In this document: positions 27,198 to 59,495 of the stretch, piece by piece
How the letters are laid out: every line of letters starts with the position of its first letter
Position numbering within the stretch: the stretch's first letter is position 1
NCBI GenBank assembly: GCA_015231795.1
Contig: JADGAX010000004.1
Span: 152,001 to 216,000 of the forward strand
Source of the DNA: Alphaproteobacteria bacterium
GTDB taxonomy: Bacteria > Pseudomonadota > Alphaproteobacteria > Rhodospirillales > WMHbin7
Reading direction: 5' to 3'
Length of the DNA: 64,000 nucleotides
Notes under the pieces: model-generated
The model's database searches: none
Told to the model about the DNA's origin: nothing
What the model saw: the letters and a program-made list of their open reading frames with translations, nothing else
Program-made: the position numbers and the translations under genes

Positions 27198-27206
27198 GTG
27201 ACTACA

Positions 27207-27234
27207 GTTCCCGGCAGGCTCGCCTGCCGGGAAC
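27207..27234 (+). other. Perfect 12-bp hairpin between the two cassette genes, copy 1
   Basis: GTTCCCGGCAGG (27207-27218), loop CTCG, and CCTGCCGGGAAC (27223-27234). It lies 10 bp after the PG-binding stop and 20 bp before the Sel1 start. No U-run follows, so it is more likely an mRNA stability or partial-termination element than a full terminator. An equivalent with a different loop is found in copy 2. Confidence 0.7.
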
Positions 27235-27254
27235 GTTCTTGTCGGAGGATCGCC

Positions 27255-28559
27255 ATGAAGATTTCACGAATTACCTTTGCCGTGTTTTTTGTCTTTGCCA
27301 TGTCCGCGTTTGACGCGCCATTGGCAGCCGACTTAACGACTTGGCTGCACCAAGCCATGGACACAAGGAAAAATCCATTCAAGAGCGCTGCAGATGCCAT
27401 GCAAAAGCAGAACGAAGGGAACATGCAGGCAGCGACTGCTGGCGACCCTTTTGCCCAATTTTGGATTTCGCATTCTTACACGCGCAAGGATTCCCCCTTG
27501 TTCGACATGTCCAAAGGCATCCGGTGGCTAAAGGAGTCCGCAGAAAGCGGGCACGCCGATGCACAGATTTTCTATGCTGGGCTTCTGGAGGGCAATCACG
27601 AACAGAAACTGTCCTGGCTCGGCAAGGCGGCGAGACACGGAAGCGTCGAGGCGCTGTTCCTGCTCGATGTTTTCGAAGTGCTGGATAAGTTGCCTCGCGG
27701 CGCGTTCGAGGCAAGCGGCTTGTTGGAAATGTCGGCAAGAGCCGGGAATGTCAAGGCGCTGGGAATATTGTGCCGCTACGGCATGATCTTCTCAGGCGCG
27801 ACAGATGGACATCCGATCCGCAATTGCGAGGATGCCGCCAAAGGGGGGTCTTCTGAAGCCATGCTTCGGCTCGGCATGCTTTACGAAAGGCGGATGGCGG
27901 ATTTCGACATCGTTCCAGGCGAATATGGCGACCTGACTTTGGCTAACTTCTATCTGCGCAATGACGCCAAAGAATATAGACGCGACATGAAGAAGGCTCA
28001 GTCGTGGTACGAAAGGGCTGCGGCGGCAGGAAACCCAAAGGCACAAGCCCGCCTCGCCCGCTTCTTGTCCCAGAATTTGGGCGGAACCTTTTCTCTTCAA
28101 CAGGCTTTCGAATGGGCAAAGAAGTCGGCTGCGCAGGGAGAAGCTGAGGGCTTGGCCCTGGCCGGCCTGATTTTGGTCAACGAGCGTTTGGGCGGCAAGG
28201 AAGCCAAGCAGGGCCTCGACTACTTGATCCGTGCGGCAGAGCGAGGCAATCCGGCAGCCATGATCGATCTGATTGTAATGTATGCGCACGGACAAGACGC
28301 GCCACGCGACCTCTCGATGGCTCTTGCTTGGTATTATTTATTGCAAGAGGAATTCGACATTGAGCGCGAAACGGAGGGCTACACGGATTACCTTCTGTTG
28401 CTCCCCCCCCAGCAGGCAATTGCCGATCTCAAGCAACTTGTCACCTCCGAAGCGGCGCTCAAGGGACGCCGGGCTGCCCAGGACCTGCGAGAGGACTTGG
28501 CTAGCAAGGGCTTCTGGCCCTTCCGCGCGCGCAGAGAAACTTACGCTCTGACCTATTGA
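27255..28559 (+). CDS. Exported Sel1-repeat (TPR-like) protein, cassette copy 1
   Basis: A 434-residue protein with a signal peptide (MKISRITFAVFFVFAMSAFDAPLAA) and a strong GGAGGA at 27244-27249, so the ATG at 27255 is preferred. From about residue 60 it is built of Sel1-like helical repeats (GDPFAQFWISHSY, WLKESAESGHADAQIFYAGLL, WYERAAAAGNPKAQARLARFLSQ, YLIRAAERGNPAAMIDLIVMYAHG). Sel1 proteins are typically scaffolds for protein-protein contact in the envelope. Compared with its paralogue at 29425 the N-terminal half is strongly diverged, the middle is similar and the last 36 residues are identical. Function is unknown; the partner is probably the preceding PG-binding protein. Confidence 0.85.
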   Translation: MKISRITFAVFFVFAMSAFDAPLAADLTTWLHQAMDTRKNPFKSAADAMQKQNEGNMQAATAGDPFAQFWISHSYTRKDSPLFDMSKGIRWLKESAESGHADAQIFYAGLLEGNHEQKLSWLGKAARHGSVEALFLLDVFEVLDKLPRGAFEASGLLEMSARAGNVKALGILCRYGMIFSGATDGHPIRNCEDAAKGGSSEAMLRLGMLYERRMADFDIVPGEYGDLTLANFYLRNDAKEYRRDMKKAQSWYERAAAAGNPKAQARLARFLSQNLGGTFSLQQAFEWAKKSAAQGEAEGLALAGLILVNERLGGKEAKQGLDYLIRAAERGNPAAMIDLIVMYAHGQDAPRDLSMALAWYYLLQEEFDIERETEGYTDYLLLLPPQQAIADLKQLVTSEAALKGRRAAQDLREDLASKGFWPFRARRETYALTY

Positions 28560-29424: not shown

Positions 29425-30720
29425 ATGCAATTTTCCAAATGCCGTTTCCTTGTTGTCGCTCTTGCGGGCTTGCTCATATTCCAGCAAGCGGCTAACGCAG
29501 AGGACTATTCGACTGTTCTCTACGAATGGGAAAGCAAGACGCCCTCTGCCGACATCAAGCAGCAATTATGGAAATTGAACCAGGGCATGACGCCCTTTGC
29601 TGAAAATGGCGATCCGGCTGCGCAATTTTACCTTGCCCGTTCAAACGGCCACGACCTATCCCCGCTATATGACCAAGCCCAATCTCTCAACTGGTATCTG
29701 AAGGCGGCAGAAGGCGGGAATGTTTTCGCCATGCTGGAATACGCAGAGATGATTTCTGCCGATCCCACCCAGCAACAGATCGCGCGTAGCTGGCTCGAAA
29801 GAGCGGCGAGAATATTGCCGGATGAAGCCGCATTTTTGCTGAGGGCGGAGAGGATTATGAATAAACCCCTCATCAATCGCTATGAAGCTAGCCGCCTCTT
29901 GAATGACGCTGCAACCAAGGGCGATGTGAGCGCCATGGAGGTCTTGTGTCTTTCTTCCTCCAATATCTCCCGTTTCTCCCGCCGCCCTCTAAGCACCTGC
30001 GAGAGAGCCGCCGCAATCGGTTCTGTACCGTCGATGTTGCATTTGGGAATGCTTTATGAGGCGCGCATGGACGACTTCTTCGTTTCTCCGTCCAGGAAGG
30101 AAACGGCACTCTTTGCTCTGCGCGATGAAGCCAAGAGCTTCAAGCCCGACCAGAAGAAGGCGCGGCACTGGTACGCGAAAGCAGCCCAGGCGGGAAACGC
30201 CAAGGCCATGGCCCGTTTTGCCCGCCTTCTAGCCCAAGGTTTTGGGGGGAAAGCTGACATGGAGAATGCCCTGTCTTGGGCGCAAAGGGCAGCCGTTCAA
30301 GACGAGCCGGAAGGGTTTGCCGTGATAGGGCTGATTTTCTCCAACGAGCGGCTCGGCCATAAAGATGGTCAACGCGGCGTGGATTTGTTGTTGCGTGCCG
30401 CACAGCAGGGCAATGCGCCCGCCATGCTGAATCTCGTTGTCATGTACGCTCACGGCCAGGACGTGGCGCGTGATTTCCAGAAGGCCTTGGCGTGGGCCTA
30501 TCTATTGCAAGAGGAATTCAATTTGCTTGTTGCCATGGAAGGCTATGAAGGCCTTGTGCTGTTGGATGTCTCTCAGGTCTGGGGCGATCTGATCGCCCAG
30601 TTGCCGCCCGAAGCGGCGCTCAAGGGACGTCGGGCTGCCCAGGACCTGCGCGAAGACTTAGCCAGCAAGGGTTTCTGGCCCTTCCGCGCGCGCAGAGAAA
30701 CTTACGCTCTGACCTATTGA
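29425..30720 (+). CDS. Exported Sel1-repeat protein, cassette copy 2
   Basis: A 431-residue paralogue of the Sel1 protein at 27255. A signal peptide (FLVVALAGLLIFQQAANA) precedes a long array of Sel1-like repeats (WYLKAAEGGNVFAMLEYAEMI, WYAKAAQAGNAKAMARFARLLAQ, LLLRAAQQGNAPAMLNLVVMYAHG). Identity with the paralogue is low at the N-terminus, rises through the repeats, and is complete in the last 36 residues (from EAALKGRRAAQDLRED to ETYALTY). The ATG follows a GGAG sequence. It is probably periplasmic. Function is unknown. Confidence 0.85.
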   Translation: MQFSKCRFLVVALAGLLIFQQAANAEDYSTVLYEWESKTPSADIKQQLWKLNQGMTPFAENGDPAAQFYLARSNGHDLSPLYDQAQSLNWYLKAAEGGNVFAMLEYAEMISADPTQQQIARSWLERAARILPDEAAFLLRAERIMNKPLINRYEASRLLNDAATKGDVSAMEVLCLSSSNISRFSRRPLSTCERAAAIGSVPSMLHLGMLYEARMDDFFVSPSRKETALFALRDEAKSFKPDQKKARHWYAKAAQAGNAKAMARFARLLAQGFGGKADMENALSWAQRAAVQDEPEGFAVIGLIFSNERLGHKDGQRGVDLLLRAAQQGNAPAMLNLVVMYAHGQDVARDFQKALAWAYLLQEEFNLLVAMEGYEGLVLLDVSQVWGDLIAQLPPEAALKGRRAAQDLREDLASKGFWPFRARRETYALTY

Positions 30721-48221: not shown

Positions 48222-48357
48222 GAGACCCCTCGAGTCACAACGCAAAACGCAGGGACTATGGCATCGGAGCGCTTAATCGTCCAGAGGAACGAAGAAACTA
48301 CATGATGTGGGGTTAAGGGCGCGTTAACGCAAAATCTGGTTGCGCTTTGATCCGCTC

Positions 48358-48405
48358 TACCCTAGTCTTGTGGGTCTTGGGGGATACACCAACAATATCT
48401 TGGGA
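48358..48405 (+). promoter_or_regulatory. Candidate NrdR operator region upstream of nrdJ
   Basis: The 16-mer at 48390-48405 (CAACAATATCTTGGGA) matches the NrdR-box consensus acaCwAtATaTwGtgt well in its core. A weaker match ending CTTGTGG begins at 48358, 32 bp earlier, a spacing seen for paired NrdR boxes. They lie 50-95 bp ahead of the nrdJ start. The second match is poor, so this is tentative. Confidence 0.35.
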
Positions 48406-48454
48406 AAACCGGGATTCTCGTCCGAAATCACAGTCGATTCATAGAGGGGCCGCT

Positions 48455-51400
48455 ATGCGAATCGCTCGCTACTATACCACCGAAGGCAAGTCTGCATACG
48501 AAGGCATTGAGTTTCGCGAAGCGACAAGCGAGATCCGCAACCCCGACGGATCGGTGGTGTTCAAGCAAGACAAGATTCGCGTCCCCGCCAGTTGGACGCA
48601 GGTGGCCGCCGATGTGCTGGCCCAGAAATATTTCCGCAGGAAGGGCATTCCTGCCGTCACCAAGGCGGTGGAAGAAGCGGACGTCCCCAATTGGCTGTGG
48701 AGGCGCGAACCCGATCAGGCGGCGCTGGCCACCTTGGCCGAGAAGGAGCGGTTCGTCGGCGAGGACAGTTCCACCCAGGTTTTCGACCGCCTGGCCGGCA
48801 CCTGGACCTATTGGGGCTGGAAGGGCGGTTATTTCGACACCGAGCGCGACGCGCGCGCCTTCTTCGACGAAATGTGCGCCATGCTGGCCCGCCAGATGGG
48901 CGCCCCCAACAGCCCGCAATGGTTCAACACCGGCCTGCACTGGGCCTATGGCATCGACGGGCCTTCGCAGGGCCATCATTATGTCGATCCCTTCACCGGC
49001 ATTTTGCAAAAGTCGGAATCGGCTTACGAGCATCCGCAGCCCCACGCATGCTTTATCCAGTCGATCAGCGACGATCTGGTCAATGAAGGCGGCATCATGG
49101 ATTTGTGGGTGCGCGAGGCCAGATTGTTCAAATACGGCTCGGGCACCGGCACCAATTTCTCGCGCCTGCGCGGCGAGAACGAGCCGCTTTCGGGCGGCGG
49201 CAAATCGTCGGGCCTGATGAGCTTCCTGAAAATCGGCGACCGCGCCGCCGGAGCCATCAAATCGGGCGGCACCACAAGGCGCGCCGCCAAGATGGTGGTG
49301 GTCGACGCCGACCATCCCGACATCGAGACCTACATCAATTGGAAAGTCACGGAAGAGCAGAAGGTGGCCGCCCTGGTCGCCGGCTCGAAATTGGCCGACA
49401 AGCATCTGAACGAAGTGATGAAGGCCTGCCGCGAATGGGACGGCAAGGACGACGGTCAGCGCTTCGACCCCTTGGTCAACAAGTCGCTGAAGAAGGCGAT
49501 TCTGGGGGCGCGCCGGGCGATGTTGCCCGAGAACTACATTCAGCGCGCCATTCAGTTCGCGCGCCAGGGCTTCACCGCGATCGAATTCCCGGTCTACGAC
49601 ACCGATTGGGATTCGGAAGCCTATCTCACCGTTTCGGGTCAGAACTCCAACAATTCCGTGCGTCTGACCGACGGTTTCATGCAGGCGGTCTTGAACGACG
49701 GCGATTGGAACCTTCAGCGGCGCACCGACGGCAAGGTGGTCAAGACCTTGAAGGCCCGCGACCTGATGGATCAGATTTCCGCAGCCGCCTGGGCCTCGGC
49801 CGATCCCGGTCTTCAGTTCGACACCACCATCAACGACTGGCACACCTGCCCGGCATCGGGGCGCATCAACGCGTCCAACCCGTGCTCGGAATACATGTTC
49901 CTGGACGACACCGCCTGCAATCTGGCGTCGTTGAACCTCGCCACCTTCAAGAACGCCGACGGCAGTTTCGACATCAAGGGATTCGAACATGCCTGCCGCC
50001 TGTGGACATTGGTTCTCGAAATCTCGGTGATGATGGCGCAGTTCCCGTCCTCGAAGATCGCCGAACTGTCCTATCAGTTCCGCACGCTGGGCTTGGGCTA
50101 CGCCAATCTCGGCGGCCTGTTGATGTCGATGGGCCTGCCTTATGACAGCGACCAGGGCCGCGCCATGGCGGGCGGCATCACGGCGTTGATGACCGGCATT
50201 TGCTATGCCACCTCGGCCGAGATGAGCCAGGAGTTGGGCAGTTTTCCGGGCTATGACGCCAACCGCGAGCATATGCTGCGCGTCATCCGCAATCACCGGC
50301 GCGCGGCGCGTGGCGACTTCCAGGGCTATGAGCGCCTAAGCACCGCGCCGATGCCCATGGACGCCGCCAATTGCCCCAACCAAACCTTGGTGGCCGCAGC
50401 CCGCAAGGCCTGGGACCAGGCTTTGGAACTGGGCGAAGCGCATGGTTTCAGAAACGCCCAAGTCAGCGTGATCGCACCCACCGGCACCATCGGCTTGGTG
50501 ATGGATTGCGACACCACCGGCATCGAACCCGATTTCGCCATCGTCAAATTCAAGAAGCTGGCGGGCGGCGGCTATTTCAAGATCATCAACCGCATGGTGC
50601 CCGACGCCCTGAAGAAACTGGGCTACAGCCAGGAACAGCGCGACGCCATCGCCGCCTATGCGGTGGGACACGGGTCGCTGGCGGGCGCACCCTTCATCAA
50701 TCACCAGTCGCTGGCCGCCCTTGGCTTCGACGAAGCGGCGCTGTCCAGGCTGGAGGCCGCGCTGGCCAACGCCTTCGACATCAAGTTCGCCTTCAACAAA
50801 TGGACGCTGGGCGAAGAATTCTGTCTGGAAAAGCTGGGCTATACCCGCGAACAGATGGACGACATGACCTTCGACATGTTAAGCGCCCTGGGCTTTTCCA
50901 AGGCCGAAGTCGAAGCCGCCAACACCTATTGCTGCGGCGCCATGACCATTGAGGGCGCGCCGCATCTGAAGCCAGAGCATCTGCCCGTCTTCGATTGCGC
51001 CAACGCCTGCGGACGCATCGGCAAGCGCTATCTGTCGGTGGACAGCCATATCCGCATGATGGCCGCCGCCCAGCCTTTCATCTCGGGCGCCATTTCGAAA
51101 ACCATCAACATGCCCAACTCGGCCAGCGTTTCGGAATGCAAGGAAGCCTATATGCTGTCCTGGCGGCTGGGGCTGAAGGCCAACGCGCTTTATCGCGACG
51201 GCTCCAAGCTCTCGCAGCCTTTGTCGGCGGTCTATCTTGAAGAAGAAGCAGAGGAAGCCGAAGCCGCGCCGCAGCCGGTATCGATGGCGGCCCGCACCGA
51301 GCAGGTGGCCGAACGCATCGTCGAGCGCATCATCAAGCAGGCCCAGCGCAGCCGCCTGCCCGACCGGCGCAAGGGCTATACCCAGAAAAGCATCGTCGGC

Positions 51401-52135
51401 GGTCACAAGGTTTACATCCGCACCGGCGAGTATGAAGACGGCAAGTTGGGTGAAATCTTCATCGACATGCATAAGGAAGGTGCGGCCTTCCGCAGCCTGA
51501 TGAATAATTTCGCCATCGCCATTTCCATCGGCTTGCAATATGGCGTGCCGCTGGAAGAATTCGTGGAGGCCTTCACCTTCACCCGCTTCGATCCTTCGGG
51601 CATCGTCGAGGGCAATTCGGTGATCAAGATGGCGACCTCGATCCTGGATTACCTGTTCCGCGAATTGGCGGTTTCCTATCTGGGCCGCAACGATCTGGCG
51701 CATGTCGAGATCGACGATTTGAAGCCCGACAGTCTGGGCAAGGGCCATGCCGAGGGCGATCTGTCGGAACGGCCCGGCATGGGCGCCAATCTGGGCGCGG
51801 TGGTCGAGCGCATCACCAGCCACGGCTATGTGCGCAACAACTTCTATGTGTTGAACGGCGGCATGGCGACCAAGGCCAAAACGGTGGAAGCCGAGGCGCA
51901 TCTGGCCCAAGCCGTGGGCGCCGAAGTGATGCTGGATGCTGGCATGCAAGCCAGCGCCCAGGTGGTGAGCCAGGCCACCATGACCGCCTTCGATTCCAAG
52001 CTGGACCAAATCCGCATGGCCCGCATGAAGGGCTATGAGGGCGACGCCTGCGGCGAATGCGGCAACTTCACCTTGGTGCGCAACGGCACCTGCCTGAAGT
52101 GCAACACCTGCGGCTCGACGAGCGGGTGTTCGTGA
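48455..52135 (+). CDS. nrdJ: Adenosylcobalamin-dependent ribonucleotide reductase (class II)
   Basis: A 1226-residue class II reductase making deoxyribonucleotides with B12 radical chemistry. The ATG at 48455 follows AGAGGGG. Visible motifs include [61 protein letters not shown] (active-site cysteine) and [21 protein letters not shown]. The C-terminal tail holds a cysteine-rich zinc-like motif (CGECG.. [11 protein letters not shown]), as in the long alphaproteobacterial NrdJ. The bluB gene for the lower B12 ligand is found 7 kb downstream. Confidence 0.97.
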
Positions 52136-52167
52136 GGGGTTAGGCTTGAAGCGGGAAGGGGCGGCAG

Positions 52168-53511
52168 ATGAATACACCATCCGCCCCTCGTCCCGTTCTT
52201 ATTCCCCCTGAGTTTGATTCCAGCAACCCTTTTGGCGAAGATGTTTTCAGCCGCAAGCAACTTGCGGATCGGTTGACCGGCTATATCGACCGACTGAGGG
52301 ATGGCTGCGTTATCGCCATAGATGCCCCCTGGGGTGAGGGCAAAAGCTGGTTCGGCAGGCGTTGGGCAGAACAGTTGAAAAGCCAAGGCCACAAAGTTGC
52401 CTATATAGACGCCTTCAAGCATGACCATGTTGAAGACCCCTTCGTCATGGTCTGCGCCGAAATCATCAATGCACTTGGATCAAAGAAGGCTGCCAAAGTC
52501 AAAAAATCCGGCCTGAAGGTTGCCAAGGCCCTGGCACCGACGGCACTGAAAATTGGCATCAATGCAGTCGGTCGCCTTGTTGGAACTTCTGATATTTGCG
52601 GCGAGGTTGGCAAAGCCGTTGAGGACGTGAGCGCCAGCGCGGCGGACGCTGCAAAGGACTATTTCTCAAAACGGTTTGAAGATTACGAAGCCGCTAAGAA
52701 GAGTGTTGATGGATTTGCCGAAACGCTCGCCGAAGCAGCAGATGCCGAGGAGAAGCCTATCATCATTTTCATCGACGAGCTTGACCGCTGCCGCCCCGAT
52801 TTCGCCGTCCGCACCATCGAACGTATCAAACATTTCTTCGACGTGCCTAAGGTCATCTTTGTCCTGCTTCTCAATCGCCAGCAATTGGAAGCTGCTGTCT
52901 GTGGTGTTTATGGTGAGAAGACGGATGCCGCAACCTATCTTGGTAAGTTTGTTCACCTATTTCTGCGATTGCCAAAGCGAAACAGCCTTTATCAAACTTC
53001 GCAAAACCACAGCATCCAGTACTGTAGGCATCTCGCACGAATCCTTGGTTTCCAGCCGACTAACGAAGTGAGCAATTTCACAGAAACCTTTGGAACCATA
53101 GCCACCCTTCTCGATTTTTCGTTTCGCCATCTTGAGCGTGGATACACTTTACTTGCCTTGGCTGGTGCAAATGGAGAAGAGATATCATTTTTGGCTTGGC
53201 CTGTTGCCCTTAAGGTTGCAGAGCCGGATATATTTTCAGGAGTTCTTCTTGGCAAGGCGGAGGCTCACAAGCTGGCTGGCGACTTAATTGAAAACAAACT
53301 GACACAGTTGCAGGAAGAAACTACCCAACGCGATTTAAAGATGTTTAGGGACCTTCATCGTGCACATCAAACAGAGAGTTTCAGTCATTTTCCGGAAGAA
53401 ACCACCGAGATTCTTAAATACCTTAACTCGCGTGTTTACCGCTTTAGCTTTAGGGATTTCAGTAAATTTCTCCCATATTGGTGTCAGCGAGTGGATTTTG
53501 ATATCGACTAA
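52168..53511 (+). CDS. KAP-family P-loop NTPase
   Basis: A 447-residue STAND-like KAP NTPase. Walker A is APWGEGKS (53-60) and Walker B IIFIDELDRC (199-208), the KAP signature. The helical stretch at about 115-165, between the two, is moderately hydrophobic but may not span a membrane. The coding sequence is more A+T-rich than its neighbours, especially after 52900, suggesting acquisition. KAP proteins include phage-exclusion factor PifA and are enriched in defence islands. It begins 32 bp after nrdJ and is followed by a MntA/HepT pair. The role here is inferred. Confidence 0.88.
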   Translation: MNTPSAPRPVLIPPEFDSSNPFGEDVFSRKQLADRLTGYIDRLRDGCVIAIDAPWGEGKSWFGRRWAEQLKSQGHKVAYIDAFKHDHVEDPFVMVCAEIINALGSKKAAKVKKSGLKVAKALAPTALKIGINAVGRLVGTSDICGEVGKAVEDVSASAADAAKDYFSKRFEDYEAAKKSVDGFAETLAEAADAEEKPIIIFIDELDRCRPDFAVRTIERIKHFFDVPKVIFVLLLNRQQLEAAVCGVYGEKTDAATYLGKFVHLFLRLPKRNSLYQTSQNHSIQYCRHLARILGFQPTNEVSNFTETFGTIATLLDFSFRHLERGYTLLALAGANGEEISFLAWPVALKVAEPDIFSGVLLGKAEAHKLAGDLIENKLTQLQEETTQRDLKMFRDLHRAHQTESFSHFPEETTEILKYLNSRVYRFSFRDFSKFLPYWCQRVDFDID

Positions 53512-53627
53512 GGCGACCTGCCGCCAATGCTGTACGCTAATACCAACTTCCCATTGTTTCTTCGATTTGCGCCATTCTTCGTCCTGACGTATGATGAGCG
53601 GCAACATACCAATGCGGATTTACGGTC

Positions 53628-53927
53628 ATGCGCCCGTCGATTGCCCTTGCCAGTGATGCCAACCGAAAGGCGCTTGCCAAGCTTTCGGAACGTCACCGGC
53701 TGACCAACATTCGGGTTTTCGGCTCGGTGGCGCGTGGCGAGGACGGAGAAAGTAGCGACCTTGATCTGCTGGTCGATCCTCTGCCCGATCTCACCACCCT
53801 CTTTGACATAGTGGCCCTGAAGTCCGAGGCGGAATCTCTGCTGGGCGTTCCGGTCGATGTACGAACCCTTGAAGACCTTCACGTCAGCATCCGCGCCCGC
53901 GTGCTTGGCGAGGCGAAACCCCTGTGA
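53628..53927 (+). CDS. mntA: MntA-type nucleotidyltransferase antitoxin
   Basis: A 99-residue minimal nucleotidyltransferase. The motif G-S-x10-D-x-D is exact: GSVARGEDGESSDLD at residues 32-46, followed by LLVDPLPD. In characterised MntA/HepT pairs the antitoxin AMPylates and silences the HEPN toxin. It overlaps the next gene by 4 bp. An alternative start was not seen, and the ribosome site is weak. Confidence 0.88.
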   Translation: MRPSIALASDANRKALAKLSERHRLTNIRVFGSVARGEDGESSDLDLLVDPLPDLTTLFDIVALKSEAESLLGVPVDVRTLEDLHVSIRARVLGEAKPL

Positions 53928-54307
53928 CGGCGAACGGCCAGCGGTTTACCCTGAAGGACCTTTTGGGTTTTCTGCTGCAAGCCATTGAGCGCGTTGACGA
54001 GGATACGGATGGACTTTCCAAAACCCAGTTTCTCGCCGATTCCCGCCAAGGGCGACAGATCAGGGACGCAGTGGTTCTTAATCTCGGAACGATGGGGGAA
54101 GCGGCTGACGACATCCGAAAGCAATTTCCCTTGTTTGCTTCGCAGCACCCGGAAATCCCGTTAGGTCAAATCTGGGACATGCGTTGTCATCTGTTCCATG
54201 GCTATCACTCCATCAACTACGACGTCGTCTGGACCACTTGCCGCGCCGCCGTTCCCGATCTTGAGCGTCAAGTTCGTGCGGCGCTGGGCGAGATAGACAA
54301 TGCCTGA
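53924..54307 (+). CDS. hepT: HepT-like HEPN toxin (DUF86)
   Basis: A 127-residue helical protein of the HepT family. The RNase active-site motif R-x4-H-x-Y is intact as RCHLFHGY at residues 87-94. The start is a GTG that overlaps the antitoxin stop (GTGA), so translation is coupled. Segment VLNLGTMGEAADDIRKQFP is typical of the family. Together with MntA it forms a type II/VII toxin-antitoxin module next to a KAP NTPase. Confidence 0.88.
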   Translation: MTANGQRFTLKDLLGFLLQAIERVDEDTDGLSKTQFLADSRQGRQIRDAVVLNLGTMGEAADDIRKQFPLFASQHPEIPLGQIWDMRCHLFHGYHSINYDVVWTTCRAAVPDLERQVRAALGEIDNA

Positions 54308-54322: not shown

Positions 54323-55369
54323 ATGACTCTCCGTTCCGCCTTCAAACTCATCGCCGTCAATCTGGGCCTGCTGCTGGCGGGCGCGGTGGCGGTCGAGCTG
54401 ATTTTCGGCGACTGGTTCGCCGACGGCCTGTCCTCGCTGAATGTCCAGCGCGACTATCAAATCCGCTATTCCGCCCAGGGTCTGTACGAGGGGGCGGGCG
54501 AGATCGTCTATAAGCGCGACCGCTGGGGTTTCAGGGGCGAATACGGGGGCGACCCAGCCCAGATCGAGCTGCTCACCATCGGCGGCAGCACGGCCAACCA
54601 GATTTATCTGCGCGACGATCAAACATGGCAGGCGGTGCTGGGCCAGGCCCTCAATCTGCGCATCGCCTCGGCGGCCATCGACGGCCAAAGCAGCATCGGC
54701 CATCTGGCCGCCTTCGAACGCTGGTTCCCCCAAGTGCCCAACCTGAAACCCAAATGGGTGCTGGCCTATGTGGGGCTGAACGACATTCTGGTCGGCGACA
54801 GCGCCAATGCCGACCGGCTGGAGCATTTCCCTTCGGCTCAGCACCATATCCGGCGCAAGAGCGCCATTTACCGGCTGGTTCAAACCGTCAAAGGCGTGCT
54901 GGCCGCCAACAAGGGGCGCATGGTTCACCGCAGGGTCGATTTCGAGACTGCCCGCTGGACAAACATTCCGACGCGCCAAGACTGGCCCCAGGCCCGCGCC
55001 CAGGCGTTGGAAGCCTATAAGGGCCGCATCCGCGCCCTGCTGGTCCATATCCGCGCCTTGGGGGCAACGCCCATTCTGGTCACGCAACGCCATGGCGATT
55101 GGCGCCAGCTTCCCAATGGCGCGGTCGAGGGCGTCGTCGAGGACAAAGCCGTCACCAACGGCGTCGATCATCACATTCTCATGAACCTTTACAACCAGGC
55201 CACGCTGGATGTTTGCCGGGTGGAAGGGGCAATCTGCCTTGATCTTGCCAGCGAGCTTGTATTCGAGGCGGGCGACTTCTACGATCTGGTCCACAACACG
55301 CCCCCGGGTGCGGCCAGGATCGGCCATTGGCTGGCGGACAAATTGAAGGACATCGTCGCAAAACCATGA
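54323..55369 (+). CDS. Exported or membrane-anchored SGNH-hydrolase-like protein
   Basis: A 348-residue protein with an N-terminal hydrophobic anchor (FKLIAVNLGLLLAGAVAVELIFG) and SGNH blocks: block I IGGST with Ser at 89, block II Gly in AIDGQSS, block III GLND with Asn near 153, and block V D-x-x-H as DLVH near 317. GDSL/SGNH enzymes are esterases or O-deacetylases of envelope polysaccharides. The substrate is unknown. Its stop overlaps the next gene by 4 bp. Confidence 0.82.
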   Translation: MTLRSAFKLIAVNLGLLLAGAVAVELIFGDWFADGLSSLNVQRDYQIRYSAQGLYEGAGEIVYKRDRWGFRGEYGGDPAQIELLTIGGSTANQIYLRDDQTWQAVLGQALNLRIASAAIDGQSSIGHLAAFERWFPQVPNLKPKWVLAYVGLNDILVGDSANADRLEHFPSAQHHIRRKSAIYRLVQTVKGVLAANKGRMVHRRVDFETARWTNIPTRQDWPQARAQALEAYKGRIRALLVHIRALGATPILVTQRHGDWRQLPNGAVEGVVEDKAVTNGVDHHILMNLYNQATLDVCRVEGAICLDLASELVFEAGDFYDLVHNTPPGAARIGHWLADKLKDIVAKP

Positions 55370-55841: not shown

Positions 55842-56357
55842 ATGCGCCTAGTCGCGACCGCTATCATGATGCTGGGCCTTGCCGCCTGCGCCCAGACGCC
55901 GCCAGCCGTGGAAAGAGCGCCCGAGAACCTGATGGCCGTGCTTTCCGCCACCACCACGGCCCGCGTCGCCCCCGACAGCAAATCGGCCAAGGTGATGGTG
56001 CTGCCCGCAAACACCTTGATCGCCATCGAGGACGGGGCCGACGGCTGGTATCTGGCGGGCCTTGAGGCCTACGGAGATTTCGGCAAAGGCTGGCTCTACC
56101 ACGATTTCCTGACCATCGACCCGCCCCGCAAGAAGGATGGCGGCACTTGGTCCCTGCCCGCCATCATGAGAAACGATGCGCTGCTGCGCGACGGCCCCGG
56201 CACCTGGGCGGGCAAGCTGGACAGTTTGAAGGCTGGCACAAGGGTGCGCGTGGTCGAGCGCCAATTGGACTGGTATCGCATCGATGAACCCAAGGCGGGC
56301 TGGATCAAGCACGACACCGCCTATATCGATGTCCGCACCTATCTGAACGCTAGGTGA
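55842..56357 (+). CDS. Lipoprotein with two SH3-like domains
   Basis: A 171-residue lipoprotein with a lipobox ending LAAC near residue 15. Two bacterial SH3-like units follow: TTTARVAPDSKSAKVMVLPANTLIAIEDGADGWYLAGL.. WLYHDFL and AIMRNDALLRDGPGTWAGKLDSLKAGTRVRVVERQLDWYRIDEP.. WIKHDTAYID. SH3b domains usually bind peptidoglycan or ligand peptides. GAGGGGG is 10 bp before the ATG at 55842; an upstream ATG at 55824 is less likely. It is the third gene of the SGNH-RidA-SH3 group. Confidence 0.8.
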   Translation: MRLVATAIMMLGLAACAQTPPAVERAPENLMAVLSATTTARVAPDSKSAKVMVLPANTLIAIEDGADGWYLAGLEAYGDFGKGWLYHDFLTIDPPRKKDGGTWSLPAIMRNDALLRDGPGTWAGKLDSLKAGTRVRVVERQLDWYRIDEPKAGWIKHDTAYIDVRTYLNAR

Positions 56358-58960: not shown

Positions 58961-59206
58961 ATGGCGCGCAACACGTCGGTCTCGCTTGGCGAGCATTTCG
59001 CAGACTTCATTGACGCCCAGGTTCAGACCGGTCGCTACGGCTCGGCCAGTGACGTTGTGCGAGCGGGCCTGCGGCTTTTGGAAGAGCACGAGGCCAAAGT
59101 AAGAGCGCTTCGCGAGGCGCTTATCGCCGGAGAGGAGTCCGGCCCACTGGCGCCGTTCGACAACAAGGCGTTCCTAAAGCGCATGCGGACTAGGCATGCC
59201 CGGTAG
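58961..59206 (+). CDS. parD: ParD-family antitoxin
   Basis: An 81-residue ribbon-helix-helix antitoxin. The N-terminus [50 protein letters not shown] is a classic ParD/CopG-type DNA-binding fold. The C-terminal half (about 50-81) wraps the toxin. It ends 11 bp inside the parE toxin gene. A GGAGGTG ribosome site precedes it, and a palindromic operator lies upstream. Confidence 0.93.
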
Positions 59207-59495
59207 CCGCCACGCTTATCAGCTTTCCCCACGAGCGGTCACCGACCTCGAAGACATCTGGCTCTATACGTTCAAGAACTGGTCGCTAGAGCAGGCGGAT
59301 GGCTATCACAACGCCATCGTCGATGCAGTCGAGGGACTGGCGGCGGGCAGAAAGTCCGGTCGTCCGGTCGATATCCGCGAGGGTTATTTCAAATATCCGG
59401 TCGGCTCCCATCTGGTGTTCTACCGCTTTACCGAATCTGGCCTTGCCATCGTCCGCGTCCTGCACCAAAGCATGGATGTGGGGCGGCACCTATAG
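59196..59495 (+). CDS. parE: ParE/RelE-family toxin
   Basis: A 99-residue type II toxin of the ParE branch. [70 protein letters not shown] is the family signature. ParE toxins poison DNA gyrase, and this one shares its name only by chance with the neighbouring topoisomerase IV gene. Its end abuts bluB, with a 6-bp convergent overlap. Confidence 0.92.

Follow-up and report, generated by a model that had tools for sequence, protein, structure and literature searches.

The locus lies in what we call the window, the whole 64,000-nucleotide stretch analysed here, which comes from a 3.63-Mb genome in 23 contigs (G000). Between nrdJ, which encodes a class II ribonucleotide reductase, and a gene for an SGNH hydrolase we found three genes and no others: one for a KAP-family P-loop NTPase (hereafter KAP), followed by mntA and hepT, which encode a minimal nucleotidyltransferase and a HEPN ribonuclease (Table 1). 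The initial annotation had described this arrangement, placed it among housekeeping genes and linked its parts to defence, and in all three respects our analysis agrees with it. It had also proposed that the three genes form a compact anti-phage unit. This is not borne out: KAP and MntA/HepT do not co-occur in the other KAP places searched, and the relatives compared have at most one of the two units at the site.

Table 1. Features of the nrdJ-SGNH interval and its two flanks, in positions of the window.
Feature	Position	Strand	Evidence and remarks
nrdJ, class II (B12-dependent) ribonucleotide reductase	48347..52135	+	NF005736, 2191.9 bits; left core flank
Segment private to G000 among the genomes compared (KAP insert)	52136..53564		BLAST chains, DNA alignment, repeat test
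KAP-family P-loop NTPase, 447 aa	52168..53511	+	PF07693 E 1.7e-36; PDC-S20; phrog_8614
Element TTGCGC, 17-nt spacer, TATGAT	53567..53595	+	by eye from alignments; 32 bp before mntA
MntA-type minimal nucleotidyltransferase (antitoxin)	53628..53927	+	PF01909 1.1e-11
HepT-type HEPN ribonuclease (toxin)	53924..54307	+	PF01934 3e-16; GTG start overlaps MntA stop
SGNH/GDSL hydrolase	54323..55369	+	PF13472 5.6e-10; right core flank

The site could be compared in four other genomes: the MAG WMHbin7 (G001), a groundwater MAG (G002), Rhodospirillaceae bacterium LM-1 (G003) and a groundwater MAG of another genus (G004). LM-1 bears the name Ca. Magneticavibrio boulderlitore in the available part of PMC12724286. 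Since ten of the 11 collinear blocks that it shares with the window are 86-94% identical (the other, a short one, is 69% identical), G000 is probably a second species of that genus. The nrdJ proteins of G000 and G003 are 97.8% identical, and the SGNH proteins of G003, G002, G001 and G004 are respectively 92, 84, 78 and 64% identical to that of the window. The comparison is restricted to one family, as grouped by our genome search, because no nrdJ lies within 1.5 kb of the SGNH relatives from other families. No SGNH relatives were found in viral contigs. In a limited literature search on this kind of site, none of the papers listed mentions nrdJ.

The two small genes are recognisable by their motifs. 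MntA contains G32-S33-x10-D44-x-D46, kept in three orthologues, and HepT contains R87-x4-H92-G-Y94, present in both of its orthologues, so that the motifs had rightly been called intact. They match the signatures GSX10DXD and RX4HXY, and the accessible text of PMC7641770 describes HepT as an RNase that MntA silences by attaching AMPs to the RX4HXY tyrosine. Both proteins miss the NCBIfam equivalog cut-offs, with 40 of 60 bits for MntA (NF047752) and 22.3 of 60 bits for HepT (NF047751). They are thus best described, from motif and Pfam matches, as MntA/HepT-like and outside these equivalogs. In a sequence search of the PDB, HepT had no match and the entry found for MntA was 1wot, a putative minimal nucleotidyltransferase. 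MntA is 93% identical in G001 and G002 (dN/dS 0.08-0.13) and HepT 86% identical in G001 (dN/dS 0.05), values which indicate that both genes are under purifying selection (dN/dS 0.05-0.13). The dS of HepT between G000 and G001 reaches 1.93, well above that of MntA (0.61) and nrdJ (0.43), and part of HepT may therefore have been exchanged. Judging from the motifs and from the characterised pair, MntA and HepT probably make up a working toxin-antitoxin pair like those that NCBIfam words as type VII. The 3.6-Mb genome of G000 has five HepT-like genes, each adjoining a nucleotidyltransferase match.

KAP scores 126.4 bits against PF07693, for a cut-off of 20, and its Walker A and B motifs are intact. 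Among 60 aligned sequences, G56, G58 and K59 of Walker A and D203, E204, L205, D206 and R207 of the Walker B region are invariant. Its best PADLOC match is the candidate family PDC-S20 (7.8e-79, residues 15-395, which leaves out the final ~50 residues), and its phage family is phrog_8614 (2.6e-79), a family of unknown function. The name PDC-S20 did not turn up in the literature searched. The PDC-S20 profile is positive in 16 of 385 genomes of the class and in 33 of 398 genomes of the phylum. We found no hydrophobic stretch resembling a membrane span, the highest 19-residue Kyte-Doolittle mean being 1.39; the structural model is helical there, with low confidence at 138-155. In the AlphaFold model (mean pLDDT 83.2, pTM 0.81) the comparison with solved structures puts RdrA of RADAR at the top (Z 16.6, 305 residues, rmsd 4.8), and six further RdrA entries (Z 13.9-14.8) stand at the same level as ORC/Cdc6 (14.8), with plant NLR ATPases at 12-13. 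Foldseek also places RdrA first, with query TM-scores of 0.34-0.46 and an rmsd above 10. Defence families missing from the VIA-align list, the source of the Z scores, are not excluded by it. The predicted fold fits a STAND-like oligomerising switch, and its resemblance to RdrA is weak. The KAP profile gave one doubtful match in the PDB sequence search (Nup205, 0.0083).

KAP differs from its surroundings in base composition. Its GC is 49.4% and its GC3 0.51, for a window GC of 61.1% and values of 61.2% and 0.81 in nrdJ. HepT (56.2%, 0.63) departs less and MntA (60.9%, 0.67) hardly at all in GC, so that the lower GC once ascribed to the block holds mainly for KAP, less for HepT and not for MntA. 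On the left, the segment private to G000 starts at most 32 bp from the nrdJ stop. On the right, homology to G001 and G002 resumes at ~53564-53566, about 53 bp past the KAP stop, and the piece private to G000, among the genomes compared, is thus KAP alone. No 9-bp direct or inverted repeats were found at these edges, and since nothing but KAP, MntA and HepT lies between nrdJ and SGNH we rejected insertion by a recognisable element. MntA is common to three species and HepT to two. From this we infer that KAP is a recent low-GC insert and MntA/HepT an older resident. The order of arrival can be no firmer than this, because four genomes show both flanks and no empty site was found.

Could KAP be a housekeeping NTPase of the host, tied to ribonucleotide reduction? 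It starts 32 bp past the nrdJ stop, on the same strand. Yet it has no match at E 1e-5 in G001-G004 (87, 81, 99 and 98% complete), three of which (G001, G003, G004) do show nrdJ. At 40 nrdJ loci belonging to other families of this order, the first five downstream ORFs of at least 60 aa match none of the five proteins of the window at 1e-4, the downstream region being shorter than 600 bp at four of these loci. The low GC of KAP and the occurrence of its relatives in viral contigs and on plasmids also speak against such a role, which we find hardly credible.

The element preceding mntA lies just past the right edge of the insert. Its hexamers and their spacing are identical in G000, G001 and G002, the spacer being partly variable, and the pattern, which was picked after the fact, has one match in the window where 0.01 is expected. 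It is a possible promoter of mntA, with a poor first hexamer. A scan for the sigma-70 consensus between 52000 and 54400 returned 0 sites, and no terminator-like sites were found in the same region.

The two flanking genes, nrdJ and SGNH, are conserved in G000, G001, G003 and G004 and lie collinearly there, and what they enclose differs in all four. It differs again in G002, whose contig starts within the site, with the SGNH flank only and no nrdJ match found. Where G000 has KAP and MntA/HepT, G001 has a reverse-strand MNT followed by MntA/HepT, without KAP. G002 has a reverse-strand MNT, an ORF with an R-x4-H stretch and an MntA, next to which HepT is almost entirely deleted. In G003 we found an AAA ATPase and a DUF4276 protein, which match the PADLOC models HEC-01A (5.6e-191) and HEC-01B (6.1e-95; L042 4527-6418), and in G004 a pair of MazE-like and PemK-like proteins. 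The recognised cargo is thus of toxin-antitoxin or candidate-defence type in five out of five genomes, with the G002 ORF and a short G003 ORF unassigned. Each genome has two or three recognised genes here, spanning about 0.6-2.2 kb in the genomes that show both flanks, and in G003 and G004 the final cargo gene overlaps, by eye, the start codon of SGNH. Naturally, this picture comes from five genomes in two genera, at least three of them MAGs, and from both flanks in four. The nrdJ-SGNH interval of relatives, which the initial annotation had proposed to inspect for an empty site, is occupied in all four. No genome other than G000 has both units there: G001 has MntA/HepT and no KAP, G002 has only MntA, and G003 and G004 have neither unit. 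Some details of the individual sites can be added. The reverse-strand ORF of G002 (L043:259-861) has no Pfam match beyond a doubtful one (0.15), and only its R-x4-H stretch, seen by eye, would make it HEPN-like. In the same genome HepT is deleted after ~13 codons (L043 1450-1502) and MntA is kept, i.e. an antitoxin without toxin. The short ORF of LM-1 stands between nrdJ and the candidate defence pair HEC-01A/B.

A tempting reading of the window is that KAP, MntA and HepT work as one defence unit, with KAP as the infection sensor and HepT as an RNase effector held in check by MntA. The genes lie on the same strand, 116 bp separate the KAP stop from the MntA start, and this gap has neither a terminator-like site nor a consensus promoter. 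STAND-like NTPases and HEPN RNases are, moreover, common parts of defence systems. We found no trace of such a unit in the other genomes searched. Families of HepT-like proteins and nucleotidyltransferases were looked for in 46 genomes, made up of the 44 distinct ones positive for PDC-S20 and two more from the KAP search. They provide 49 KAP places, i.e. 18 rows from the class at E 1e-30 and 35 rows from the phylum at E 1e-40, six of them shared, and two further rows (G083, G053); ten weak rows, with E of 5.8e-11 and weaker, were left out. HepT or MNT lies within 10 kb of KAP in only one of these places, that of the window itself. At least seven of the 49 are within ~1 kb of a contig end, where neighbours could be missed. 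The search does detect pairs, since in the same genomes 20 of the 22 HepT matches have an MNT within 600 bp.

The same holds beyond cellular genomes. KAP relatives are encoded in 322 candidate stretches of viral contigs, and HepT was found in none of the 50 such records searched (out of 80 kept from the 322; the search covered HepT only, and records may be fragments). They are rare on plasmids (6 of 72,556 records) and in phages (5 of 50,697). In the contexts seen for five of the six plasmid matches and one of the five phage matches, the neighbours are integrases, a TIR protein, an SOS-response peptidase, an HNH endonuclease, a second KAP and a transposase, with no annotated MntA/HepT, although these gene tables may be incomplete. 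Among all the contexts examined for HepT and MNT, PDC-S20 has no recurrent partner of either kind, and co-occurrence of KAP with MntA/HepT was not seen beyond the window. Together with the MntA/HepT of G001, which stands without KAP, and with the element before mntA, which is retained in species lacking KAP, these results make a single three-gene unit very improbable. G000 encodes a second KAP (C5, 32% identical; L046 8678-10637), whose neighbours look by eye like housekeeping genes. Its contig has no HepT match and the closest MNT is 37 kb away. Beside it lies a reverse-strand ORF that resembles, by eye, a helix-turn-helix antitoxin.

Independent modules might also be of no use to the host. 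MntA/HepT would then act as a selfish addiction module and KAP would be a stray gene of phage origin, in a gap that happens to tolerate inserts. HepT relatives are indeed found on 1,405 plasmid records, KAP relatives in the viral contigs, and G002 has lost HepT but kept MntA. There are other small indels nearby, such as the parDE pair at 58961-59495, absent from G003 and G001. Relative to G003 the 64 kb of the window show seven gaps larger than 250 bp, so turnover of small cargo is common here. Yet the low dN/dS of MntA and HepT, the intact motifs of KAP and the recurrence of recognised toxin-antitoxin or candidate-defence cargo at the site in all five genomes are at odds with a lack of benefit, and we regard this explanation as rather unlikely. 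The nrdJ-SGNH gap stands out from the other indels by having a different toxin-antitoxin or candidate-defence set in each genome. As for these other indels, the ParD/ParE pair (PF03693 2.1e-34, PF05016 2.3e-19) lies 3.6 kb past SGNH. Past the gene that ends near position 56353 of the window, LM-1 has a 3.3-kb insert (L175 7153-10498) with a 551-aa ORF that by eye resembles a lysozyme joined to a peptidoglycan-binding part. The segment 28564-30880 is missing in LM-1. An ORF in this segment (29425-30720) ends in a repeat of the C-terminus encoded by the gene at 27198-28559, and by eye a Sel1-repeat-like protein looks to have been duplicated locally.

We therefore favour, with a probability of roughly 0.7, two independent modules, MntA/HepT and a single-gene phage-defence KAP, placed in a small cargo hotspot that lies between nrdJ and SGNH and has no integrase. 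MntA/HepT would have been resident first, the HepT RNase being silenced by MntA through AMPylation of the RX4HXY tyrosine, as the motifs suggest. KAP would be a later arrival that came by itself. The nrdJ transcript may extend into it, given the 32-bp gap in which no terminator-like site was found. Upon sensing infection, the STAND- or RdrA-like ATPase would oligomerise, and either the infection or the cell would be stopped. Recombination between the conserved flanks could exchange the cargo. To judge from replacement at the edges of genes and the absence of border repeats, no integrase of its own would be involved. That KAP is a one-gene phage-defence NTPase is the most likely reading of its sequence, PDC-S20 being only a PADLOC candidate family. 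One might speculate further that the space between the nrdJ stop and the SGNH start is an integrase-free exchange slot of this lineage, which in every genome seen holds one or two tiny defence or toxin modules traded by recombination between the flanks, and that the soluble PDC-S20 KAP is a one-gene, RdrA-like, ring-forming defence NTPase. This we put forward tentatively, as a bolder proposal with the odds against it, not least because most RdrA entries tie with ORC/Cdc6.

These results correct the three-gene reading, tempting yet wrong, and provide a worked example of adjoining defence genes that are unrelated tenants of one site. They also draw attention to PDC-S20, a lone NTPase found repeatedly in both bacterial genomes and viral contigs, as a candidate for one-gene phage defence. 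With PDC-S20 the KAP of the window shares the profile match and the single-gene format of ~450 aa. Its likeness to PifA and QatA is restricted to the KAP domain (5.9e-16 and 4.6e-12), far weaker than the match to PDC-S20. It reaches 45.5 of the 600 bits of the NCBIfam QatA model, and neither MntA, HepT nor SGNH matches the models of the Qat partners, so that we do not assign it to the Qat or PifA systems. With RdrA it has 16% identity at about half the length, and the RdrB gene of RADAR is not beside it, its neighbours being nrdJ, MntA, HepT and SGNH. Tmn is a one-gene system. According to the available text of PMC11846954, it is an anti-phage protein of the KAP family with two transmembrane segments. 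The window KAP shares the family and a putative defence role but lacks these segments, which rules it out as a Tmn.

The MntA/HepT of Shewanella oneidensis (SO_3165/SO_3166), as presented in part of PMC7641770, has the same motifs and the same adjoining of a small MNT protein and a HEPN protein. In contrast with it, the pair described here stays under the NCBIfam equivalog cut-offs and is known from its sequence. The parts are of known kinds, and the site adds a small new case to the core defence hotspots. The core defence hotspots cDHS1 and cDHS2 of Pseudomonas aeruginosa harbour defence cargo that varies while the core genes around it stay fixed, with lower GC and, in the passages available from PMC10250203, often no mobile gene. 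The nrdJ-SGNH site resembles them in these features, and has two or three recognised genes per genome in five genomes of two genera.
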